28,022 nt of DNA, taken from positions 1 through 28,022 of the IMG/VR virus record IMGVR_UViG_3300020595_000151; one strand, written 5' to 3'. Within the stretch, counting starts at the first letter, position 1. Every line of letters starts with the position of its first letter. Origin of the DNA: a virus. Position numbers and translations under genes: made by a program. This document shows, one piece after another, positions 5,410 to 15,149 of the stretch. The notes under the pieces were generated by a model. That model made no database searches. It was not told where the DNA came from and saw only the letters and a list, made by a program, of their open reading frames with translations.

Positions 5410-7398
5410 ATGACAATAAAGATAGATAAGACAAGGGACAGTTTACTAGAATCCTACGCTGTAGGAATGCTAAAAGACTTTTATTTAACAGAATATGAGA
5501 AGTCGCCACAAGAGGCATTTAGACGTGCTTCTACTGCATGGTCGAAATATCGTGATGATATGGACGAGGACTTAGCACAGAGATTATACAATTATGTATC
5601 AAACAAGTGGTTCATGTTTGCTTCTCCTGTTTTGTCTAATGCTCCTAATGGTGCAAAGCAAGGTAAGGGAATGCCAATCTCTTGTTTTTTGACTTATGTT
5701 CCTGATACTCTTGAGGGTCTTATTGGACATACTTCTGAATTAAGATGGTTATCTGTTTATGGTGGTGGAGTCGGTGGTCATTGGAGTGATGTAAGAACTG
5801 TATCAGACATAGCACCAGGCCCTATGCCTTTCTTGCATACAGTTGATGCAGATATGATCGCTTATCGTCAAGGTAAAACACGTAAAGGTTCTTATGCGGC
5901 ATACATGGATATATCACACCCAGACATTATTGAGTTCCTGAATATGCGTATTCCTACAGGTGATGTACAGCGCAAAGCTTTGAACTTACATAATGCAATC
6001 AACATATCTGATGAGTTCATGAAGGCAGCCGCTGAAGGGAAATCTTTTGACCTCCGTGATCCAAAAGATGGAAGAGTTAAAGACACTGTAGATGCACGTA
6101 AACTATGGGAACGTGTTTTAGAGACACGATTCAGAACTGGTGAACCTTACATGAACTTCATCGATACAGCTAATCGTGATCTACCTCAACCCTTGAAGGA
6201 TCTGGGCTTGAAGATTAATGGATCTAATCTATGTAATGAAATTCATTTGCCAACAAGTGCAGATAGAACTGCTGTATGTTGCTTATCATCTTTGAATCTA
6301 GAATACTATGATGAGTGGAAAGATACTAGTATTGTAGCTGACCTTATCTGTATGCTAGACAACGTTATAGAGTTCTTCATTGAGAATGCTCCTGACACAA
6401 TTTCACGTGCTAAGTTTAGTGCTAGTCGTGAACGATCTTTAGGTCTTGGCGCTATGGGGTTTCACAGTCTATTACAGAAGCACGGTGTCGCTTGGGAGTC
6501 TGAGAAAGCTAAAGAGATTAATGATGTTGTCTTTAATCAAATAAAATCGCAAGCTGTCGAAGAGACTGAGAGACTAGCTGTAGAGCGTGGTGAGTACCCA
6601 GATGGGATTGGCTCAGGCAGACGTAACTCACACTTGCTTGCAATTGCACCTAATGCATCATCTGGTGTAATCCTATCGACATCTCCTTCTATCGAGCCAC
6701 TAAAAGCGAACGCATATACACATCGTACACGTGCTGGTTCGTTTCTAGTAAAGAATAAGTATCTCTCAGAATTACTGACTGCTAAAGGAGAGAATAACGA
6801 TACCAATTGGACTTCTATTATTACTAAGAAAGGTTCAGTACAACACTTGCCATTCTTGACAGAAGGCGAGAAAGCTGTTTTTAAAACTGCTGATGAATTA
6901 GATCAAAACTGGGTGGTACAACATGCCGCAGACAGACAGAAATATATCTGTCAAGGACAATCAGTAAATCTATTCTTCCCTGCAGGAGCACCTAAATCAT
7001 ATGTAAGTCAAGTACACTTACGTGCATGGAAAGAAGGACTCAAAGGGCTGTATTATCTGCGTACAGAGGCAAAACAACGTGCAGAGAACGTTAGTGAGAA
7101 AGTCGAAAGAGTTGCACTAGCTGGAGATATGCGTAGTATCGTATACTCTAAGAAAGACTGTCCGTTTTGTTCCATGGCTATGGAAGAATTAAAGTTACGA
7201 GGTATTCCATTCGATAAGATTGACCTCAAGTCAATCGGTAAATCAGCCGCAGAAGTAACAGGACGTAAAGGAGTCAATAGTGTACCACAGATATACATAG
7301 CAGGTGAATATGTAGGTGGATATAATGAGTTGATGGATTTTTTAAATAAGCCACTCGCCACAGAAGAAGGTGAAGAGTGTAGAGCGTGTGAGGGATAA
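5410..7398 (+). CDS. nrdA: Class I ribonucleotide reductase large subunit fused to glutaredoxin
   Basis: Reduces ribonucleotides to deoxyribonucleotides. 662 residues. The reductase part (1 to about 565) lacks an N-terminal ATP-cone and begins in the helical part of the catalytic domain. Active-site residues are Cys92 (PISCF), Asn273/Cys275/Glu277 (NLCNE), Cys290 (AVCCLSSLNL) and the radical-path Tyr548-Tyr549 (LYYLRT). A glutaredoxin domain follows at about 574-648, with CPFC (584-587), SVPQIY and GGY. After it comes a short tail ending in ECRACEG, with Cys657 and Cys660, like the redox tail normally found at the end of NrdA. The glutaredoxin thus sits between catalytic core and tail. The gene is 37 bases before nrdB. 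Confidence 0.94.
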   Translation: MTIKIDKTRDSLLESYAVGMLKDFYLTEYEKSPQEAFRRASTAWSKYRDDMDEDLAQRLYNYVSNKWFMFASPVLSNAPNGAKQGKGMPISCFLTYVPDTLEGLIGHTSELRWLSVYGGGVGGHWSDVRTVSDIAPGPMPFLHTVDADMIAYRQGKTRKGSYAAYMDISHPDIIEFLNMRIPTGDVQRKALNLHNAINISDEFMKAAAEGKSFDLRDPKDGRVKDTVDARKLWERVLETRFRTGEPYMNFIDTANRDLPQPLKDLGLKINGSNLCNEIHLPTSADRTAVCCLSSLNLEYYDEWKDTSIVADLICMLDNVIEFFIENAPDTISRAKFSASRERSLGLGAMGFHSLLQKHGVAWESEKAKEINDVVFNQIKSQAVEETERLAVERGEYPDGIGSGRRNSHLLAIAPNASSGVILSTSPSIEPLKANAYTHRTRAGSFLVKNKYLSELLTAKGENNDTNWTSIITKKGSVQHLPFLTEGEKAVFKTADELDQNWVVQHAADRQKYICQGQSVNLFFPAGAPKSYVSQVHLRAWKEGLKGLYYLRTEAKQRAENVSEKVERVALAGDMRSIVYSKKDCPFCSMAMEELKLRGIPFDKIDLKSIGKSAAEVTGRKGVNSVPQIYIAGEYVGGYNELMDFLNKPLATEEGEECRACEG

Positions 7399-14177: not shown

Positions 14178-14206
14178 TTGACATGAGATGATTTTTATGT
14201 AATAAT
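14178..14206 (+). promoter_or_regulatory. Sigma70-like promoter for 14241 gene
   Basis: TTGACA (14178-14183), 17 bp, AATAAT (14201-14206); TAATAA one base earlier is the other reading. It could also transcribe the structured RNA and tRNA-Arg(ACG) downstream. Confidence 0.7.
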
Positions 14207-14240: not shown

Positions 14241-14492
14241 ATGAATATAATGACTAGCTACCAACTGAGCGAATTCAACAAAGCATTCTTGAATGCAGTT
14301 GAATCAACTGAGAACCATGAAGCAGACAATTCTATTAATTGGAACTTTGTTGATGCAGACGTTACAATGGACATGAGCGAGATGTTCGGAACTGAGCTTG
14401 ATGATAAAACACTTCAAGTTGAGTTTAATTTAGCCGCCGATGCGTACTTGAATGACTTCGGTCACGAAGCAACGCATTACTACGGCGCTTAA
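14241..14492 (+). CDS. Small acidic protein, unknown function
   Basis: 83 residues, acidic, with several Met, Asn and His. GTGAGATG precedes the ATG; a second ATG three codons on is also possible. No recognisable motif. It is the only protein gene between its promoter and the structured RNA/tRNA segment. Confidence 0.7.
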   Translation: MNIMTSYQLSEFNKAFLNAVESTENHEADNSINWNFVDADVTMDMSEMFGTELDDKTLQVEFNLAADAYLNDFGHEATHYYGA

Positions 14493-14702
14493 AGAGACCC
14501 GTCGGATAGCGTCCGAATAGTATGCTAATGGTAATGCATATGAAGATGAAGCAAGGTCGCAGTTGCAAAAAAATTACCCGATGACAGTAGTCCGTATACT
14601 GGGATGCGTTAGCACTGAAGTGTGGAGCCCTAAAGTTCGAGATCAATAACAGATCGCTTTAGTTGGCAAAGAAGCATTAAGAGCACCCAGACCTATTAAT
14701 AG
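14493..14702 (+). ncRNA. Probable structured noncoding RNA before tRNA-Arg
   Basis: 210 bases without a convincing gene but with many possible pairings: TCGGA/TCCGA (14502-14506 with 14512-14516), TATGC/GCATA (14521-14525 with 14536-14540) whose loop GGTAAT can pair with ATTACC (14573-14578), GCAA/TTGC (14551-14566), CAGTA/TACTG (14585-14601), CAC-TGAA-GTG (14613-14622), GCC-CTAAAG with CTTTAG-TT-GGC (14627-14667, inner GATC/GATC), and a closing stem CTGGGaTGC with GCACCCAG (14599-14607 with 14683-14690). The palindrome CCTATTAATAGG touches the tRNA. T4 is known to make two stable RNAs of unknown role from its tRNA cluster; this may be an analogue. No known RNA family is recognised. Confidence 0.5.
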
Positions 14703-14778
14703 GCGCTTGTAGTTCAGTGGATAGAATATCGGTCTACGAAACCGGAGGTCAAAGGTTCGAATCCTTTCAAGCGCACCA
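14703..14778 (+). tRNA. tRNA-Arg (anticodon ACG)
   Basis: Full cloverleaf. Acceptor GCGCTTG/CAAGCGC is perfect, D arm GTTC/GAAT, anticodon stem TCGGT/ACCGG with loop CTACGAA (anticodon ACG at 14736-14738), T arm AAAGG-TTCGAAT-CCTTT, discriminator A and encoded CCA at 14776-14778. To read CGU, CGC and CGA, its A34 must be changed to inosine by the host TadA. Both tRNAs of this window are arginine tRNAs. Confidence 0.97.
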
Positions 14779-14791
14779 ACTGAGGAGAAAG

Positions 14792-15016
14792 ATGAGAATG
14801 AGAGATCAAATTCTAAAAGCCCTAAATCAACATGCTTTAGGCAATATCGAAAAGCATAGGATGAACGTAGAGGTGTACCTCACTAATCCTGCTGGTATCG
14901 GGGAGCATCCAAGTGTTCTCGAGGCAATTGAGGTAGAGCTAAATGCTATCTCTGTTTACCGTGATCAACTCGATATCATATCTGAGTTTTTTGATTCAAA
15001 AGAACCACGCATTTGA
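14792..15016 (+). CDS. Conserved T4-like phage protein, unknown function
   Basis: 74 residues from ATG at 14792 (GAGGAG 5 bases before). A longer in-frame opening runs back into the tRNA and is rejected. Helical, with the conserved-looking run HALGNIEKHRMNVEVYLTNP then GIGEHPSVLEAIEVEL, a family common in marine T4-like phages. It directly follows tRNA-Arg(ACG), and its stop touches the late promoter at 15017. Confidence 0.8.
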   Translation: MRMRDQILKALNQHALGNIEKHRMNVEVYLTNPAGIGEHPSVLEAIEVELNAISVYRDQLDIISEFFDSKEPRI

Positions 15017-15024
15017 TATAAATA
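15017..15024 (+). promoter_or_regulatory. T4-type late promoter TATAAATA
   Basis: Exact TATAAATA starting one base after the stop of the preceding gene. RNA would start near 15030 and meet a strong terminator at 15110-15149. Confidence 0.75.
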
Positions 15025-15109
15025 AACGTATAAGGTAAGACATAGAAATAATGATTTATTTAAATATGTACAGCCCAATTACGGGTACATCAAATTGCCT
15101 TATACCGGA

Positions 15110-15149
15110 CCCTCTAAGGCTAATGCTGTAGCTTTAGGGGGTTTTTTTT
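15110..15149 (+). terminator. Rho-independent terminator
   Basis: CCCTCTAAGGCT (15110-15121) pairs with AGCTTTAGGGGG (15130-15141), 12 bp with two G-U pairs and an 8-base loop, followed by eight T (15142-15149). The best terminator in the window. Just upstream, ATGTA..CCC (about 15065-15075) can pair with GGGTACAT to give another hairpin. Confidence 0.9.

Follow-up and report, generated by a model that had tools for sequence, protein, structure and literature searches.

The 210-base gap at positions 14493–14702 of the 28,022-nt viral stretch analysed here (the window) holds a real structured RNA, which has relatives in eight other IMG/VR contigs and is linked to tRNA genes in T4-like phages. 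The structure is judged to be real because of comparative evidence, i.e., 28 core base pairs followed through seven sequences, rather than because of any single-sequence fold. This RNA probably represents a family of structured non-coding RNAs that had not been described before, each member being a discrete molecule which would be excised from tRNA-operon transcripts and would act in trans, by analogy with T4 RNA C/D, GOLLD or ROOL.

Genomic setting

The gap is bounded exactly by the end of an ORF at 14492 and the start of tRNA-Arg(ACG) at 14703, and the genes of the window, i.e., those for ribonucleotide reductase, thymidylate synthase, a deaminase, PhoH and an exonuclease, fit a T4-like phage. 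An earlier note on this DNA had placed the RNA between an early-type promoter and a tRNA. The tRNA is indeed directly 3′, but the promoter-like site is found 5′ of the preceding ORF (14241–14492) and not immediately before the RNA; as judged from its match to the consensus, this site is likely the source of the operon transcript. The coordinates of all features are collected in Table 1.

The preceding ORF encodes an 83-residue protein that has relatives at 13 loci in other virus contigs, several of which share the stretch DNSINWNF with it, and a PHROG search with this protein gave no match. On the 3′ side of the tRNA, a 74-residue protein (window 14791–15016) is part of a family which counts over 560 relatives among viral contigs, and this part of the window matches Prochlorococcus phage genes.

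Table 1 Features of the RNA locus in the window, with the evidence for each
Feature	Position	Strand	Evidence
sigma-70-type promoter-like site, 5′ of ORF 14241–14492	14178–14206	+	11/12 consensus matches, extended TG; consensus match only
Whole structured RNA, from the stop-codon region of ORF 14241–14492 to the tRNA-Arg(ACG) 5′ end	14497–14702	+	Homologs in 8 contigs; alignments
Hairpin H1, 5 bp, loop UNGCN	14502–14516	+	3/5 pairs change on both sides: UCGGA/UCCGA, CCGG/CCGG, UUGGG/CCCAA
Hairpin P1, GUAUGC/GCAUAU, with GGUAAU in its loop	14520–14541	+	Present in 7/7 sequences, invariant
Pseudoknot strand 1, GGUAAU	14530–14535	+	Pairs with 14573–14578; columns 37/82 A-U in 3 sequences, G-C in 4
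Invariant unpaired linker GAAGAUGAA	14542–14550	+	Identical in 7/7 sequences
Hairpin H3, conserved UCGC	14551–14566	+	3/6 pairs change on both sides; stem survives a 2-nt loop indel
Pseudoknot strand 2, AUUACC	14573–14578	+	Pairs with 14530–14535; evidence as for strand 1
Hairpin H4: CG, bulged AU, 3 bp, AGUA tetraloop	14579–14594	+	GAC/GUC in 4 copies, GCA/UGC in 3, all paired
3′ domain, closed by CUGGG-a-UGC (14599–14607) with GCACCCAG (14683–14690)	14599–14690	+	Closing helix invariant in 4 Arg(ACG) copies
Small hairpin CAC/GUG in the 3′ domain	14613–14624	+	Kept in four Arg(ACG) copies, loops differ; three pairs invariant
Variable helix GCC CUAAAG / CUUUAG GGC, inner GAUC/GAUC	14627–14667	+	GCC/GGC, GCU/AGC, GUU/AAC: two compensatory pairs
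Small hairpin CCUA/UAGG abutting the tRNA 5′ end, including tRNA base 1	14692–14703	+	CCUU/AAGG in L002 and L041
tRNA-Arg(ACG) with encoded CCA	14703–14778	+	ARAGORN; Rfam RF00005, 70.7 bits

Comparative evidence for the fold

The gap folded as a single sequence has an MFE of −46.7 (z = −0.94), with 34 of 200 shuffles equally good, and the homologs folded in the same way give z values from −0.5 to −2.0. Thus, the sequence taken alone offers no proof of structure; the folding program used for these single sequences is blind to pseudoknots. The comparison of the homologs, based on hand and MAFFT alignments, showed a nearly gap-free core (window 14497–14595) composed of four hairpins and a pseudoknot, which is common to seven distinct sequences. 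In this core, 95.9% of the cells formed by the 28 pairs and the seven sequences are paired, and nine of the 28 pairs have changed on both sides. Sliding the partner strands as a control lowers the pairing to 28–40%. The covariation score is 0.337 vs. 0.151 ± 0.027 in shuffles, none of 500 reaching it, although the seven sequences are few and come from about three lineages (those in L247, L259 and L275 are alike), so that the shuffle counts overstate independence. RNAalifold, given the alignment only, predicted 22 pairs, of which 21 are among the 22 nested pairs of the core and seven show a compensatory change.

The clearest case of covariation is H4, whose loop is identical while the stem changes. 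For P1, conservation suggests the helix and covariation speaks neither for nor against it. The pseudoknot proposed in the earlier note, between GGUAAU in a hairpin loop and AUUACC further 3′, is present and includes one compensatory pair; the Pro and Ser-Arg copies (three sequences) lack its sixth pair, and the remaining uncompensated pairs are invariant. The two strands that would form the long closing helix with a single bulged A are also found where that note had drawn them. Homologs which vary without keeping their pairs had been named there as grounds against the RNA; the opposite is seen, with compensation in H1, H3, H4 and one pseudoknot pair.

Outside the core, compensation in the 3′ domain helix was found within the Arg(ACG) group, and the copy in L010 has an additional hairpin at the variable helix. 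In L247 and L275 the 3′ domain differs in both sequence and fold and could be closed by more than one helix, and the long closing helix may take another form outside the Arg(ACG) copies.

Relatives and their linkage to tRNA genes

Including that of the window, nine copies of the RNA were identified. Four precede tRNA-Arg(ACG) (the window, L002, L010 and L041), four precede tRNA-Pro(TGG) (L247, L259, L268 and L270), and the one in L275 occupies the whole interval from tRNA-Ser(ACT) to tRNA-Arg(TCT). A tRNA gene thus lies directly 3′ of the RNA in all nine contigs, which places the RNA inside a tRNA transcription unit, as for T4 RNA C/D. The length of the RNA is 175–231 nt across all copies. When a covariance model was run on 50 whole contigs, the members scored 108–120 bits vs. 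at most 17.7 bits for everything else, with one copy per contig.

These relatives were reached by several routes. L002 and L010 were found through the upstream 83-residue protein, and in each the RNA is clearly present and is followed by the same tRNA. The fourth Arg(ACG) copy, in L041, was found with a DNA pattern taken from the core; its upstream gene is different, while the order of RNA, tRNA and downstream gene is kept. The divergent copies in L247, L259 and L275 were found by a pattern on the P1–pseudoknot geometry, and L268 and L270 were recovered afterwards with the covariance model. Five earlier pattern scans of viral sequences had returned only the first three relatives, plus coding false positives, and 80 loci fetched via the downstream gene gave no additional copy. 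The scans of the collection require exact patterns, and more divergent copies have likely been missed. L247 also encodes homologs of phage DNA-binding protein, endolysin and exonuclease families.

Beyond the IMG/VR contigs, blastn of the RNA against 50,697 phage records and against plasmids found no relative. A bacterial origin was rejected, with a copy in 0 of 398 Pseudomonadota genomes under strict filters and with no positive control among bacteria; three matches from the genome pattern scan were rejected as coding-like false positives. Two further matches of the covariance model were taken as chance, i.e., one in the T4 segB coding region (20.8 bits), which is missing the pseudoknot partner, and one in L288 (17.7 bits), which falls within a 253-aa ORF.

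Conservation relative to the neighbouring genes

Between the window and L041, and for this pair only, no element of the locus is as well conserved as the RNA, with 86.9% identity vs. 76.3% for the adjoining tRNA and 55.0% for the next gene; the stretch that runs from the 3′ side of H1 up to the variable helix is 94.4% identical. In comparisons with L002 and L010, conservation is higher in the tRNA than in the RNA, and higher in the RNA core than in the flanking genes. The tRNA-Arg(ACG) of L041 (8644–8720) differs from that of the window at 24% of positions, both following the same RNA, as if this tRNA had been exchanged or had evolved faster than the RNA.

Comparison with known RNAs

Searches for known families in the gap, covering all Rfam models at E values up to 5 (including those for riboswitches, ribozymes, group I introns and RNase P RNA), found none, and cmscan of four other loci at the Rfam gathering score returned tRNAs only. 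A tmRNA search of the window with ARAGORN also found none.

Stable RNAs from the T4 tRNA cluster have long been known. Like the present family, T4 RNA C and RNA D are small and are encoded in a T4-type tRNA cluster, beside a tRNA-Arg; however, they are 139 and 119 nt long, lie downstream of the tRNA and share no core motif with this family. An unfiltered cmsearch of T4 69500–73500 gave at most 3.6 bits on the sense strand of rnaC/rnaD, the best score there being 8.7 bits on the wrong strand. The description of the RNA in the earlier note as comparable but unrelated to these T4 RNAs therefore fits, since rnaC and rnaD adjoin tRNA-Arg yet do not match the model. The function of T4 RNA C and RNA D (the species 1 and 2 stable RNAs) is unknown (PMC9697503). 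GOLLD and ROOL, ornate phage RNAs that are often near tRNA islands, are also of unknown function (PMC12286853). In contrast to the present copies, these RNAs reach several hundred nt or more, and their Rfam models are unmatched by the window (gathering score, and E up to 5 in the gap) or by the four other loci (gathering score).

Proposed origin and alternatives

In the explanation that we consider probable, the RNA would be transcribed together with its neighbours inside the tRNA transcription unit, and RNase P, in maturing the downstream tRNA, would cut its 3′ end; in L275, the preceding tRNA-Ser, when matured at its 3′ side, would leave the 5′ end of the RNA. The borders of the RNA coincide with tRNA processing sites, on the 3′ side (RNase P) always and on the 5′ side (tRNA 3′ processing) in L275. 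Once freed, the RNA would presumably be stable and fold into an H-type pseudoknot (P1 plus the pseudoknot helix), with H3 in an A-rich third loop and with H1 and H4 flanking, and its invariant unpaired stretches (GAAGAUGAA, the A-run, UCGC and AGUA) would most probably act in trans by binding the translation machinery or a protein of the host or the phage. The core is kept while the following tRNA varies, i.e., Arg(ACG), Pro(TGG) or Arg(TCT), which makes a role tied to one particular tRNA unlikely. However, the linkage to tRNA genes is equally expected from a cis role on any downstream tRNA.

Such a cis role is the main rival, to which we give an appreciable but minor chance: the RNA may be a leader controlling the transcription, processing or stability of any following tRNA, e.g., as an antitermination or maturation element. 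It always stands directly 5′ of a tRNA, and the small hairpin that adjoins the 5′ end of the tRNA in the Arg(ACG) group would suit a leader; however, this hairpin is missing from L247 and L275, the core remains constant while the downstream tRNA changes, no terminator-like site was found between the RNA and the tRNA, and RNase P works without such a leader. A quite improbable alternative is a ligand- or tRNA-sensing aptamer, in which the pseudoknot would bind a metabolite, or UGGU the ACCA end of a tRNA, with a switch of conformation. The preQ1-II riboswitch is an H-type pseudoknot with an extra hairpin in its third loop, which is like the topology of the core, and UGGU is invariant. Nevertheless, preQ1-II sits before a coding gene whereas the present RNA sits before tRNAs, with no sequence match to it, no terminator or ribosome-site expression platform seen and no Rfam riboswitch match at E values up to 5. 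An alternative 8-bp helix, UAAUGCAU/AUGCGUUA, would permit a switch in the four Arg(ACG) copies, but it does not exceed chance expectation. A T-box reading was dropped, with no terminator and no specifier match seen.

The compact pseudoknotted core with near-invariant unpaired bases might also be expected of a self-cleaving or other ribozyme which trims the operon transcript, yet no Rfam ribozyme, intron or RNase P model matched at E values up to 5, and this is very improbable. The likelihood that the locus is instead a short coding sequence (MVMHMKMKQ.R.CKKITR in the window) is close to negligible: the short frame is conserved in the window, L002, L010 and L041, and some changes among these copies fall at third codon positions, but long stretches lack synonymous change, a ribosome-binding site was not seen, and in L275 a 2-nt and a 1-nt indel (columns 66–67 and 76) shift the frame to an early stop while the stem is kept. 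The loss of the frame with preservation of the hairpin refutes this reading for the family. Just as negligible is a decayed mobile element or a chance-structured spacer, with which the single-sequence fold, no better than shuffles, would be compatible; for the core, this is refuted by the compensatory changes together with a conservation above that of the tRNA (window vs. L041).

Returning to a discrete RNA acting in trans, a bolder proposal, which we hold to be speculative and somewhat less likely than the leader, is that the RNA belongs to a new class of phage RNAs which are carried in tRNA operons, are released by tRNA processing and act on the translation or tRNA machinery. For example, the invariant UGGU might bind tRNA acceptor ends, or the RNA might occupy a tRNA-binding protein; if true, phage translation would be kept going while host tRNAs decay. 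Another, unrelated RNA family makes the role of phage tRNA-island RNAs testable, and this one is compact enough for structure work. The consensus and the covariance model can be used for finding cultured phages with the RNA.

A second RNA candidate downstream

Further 3′ in the window, an exact TATAAATA late-promoter-like box (15017–15024) is followed by a 121-nt element (15028–15148), which is closed by an 11-bp stem, GUAUAAGGUAA/UUGCCUUAUAC, and includes a strong intrinsic terminator. This element was not found in GenBank phages. Its predicted fold has an MFE of −44.1 (z = −6.6), and it is conserved in three contigs (window 15017–15148, L002 about 5770–5870 and L010 about 595–725), among which the inner hairpin varies.
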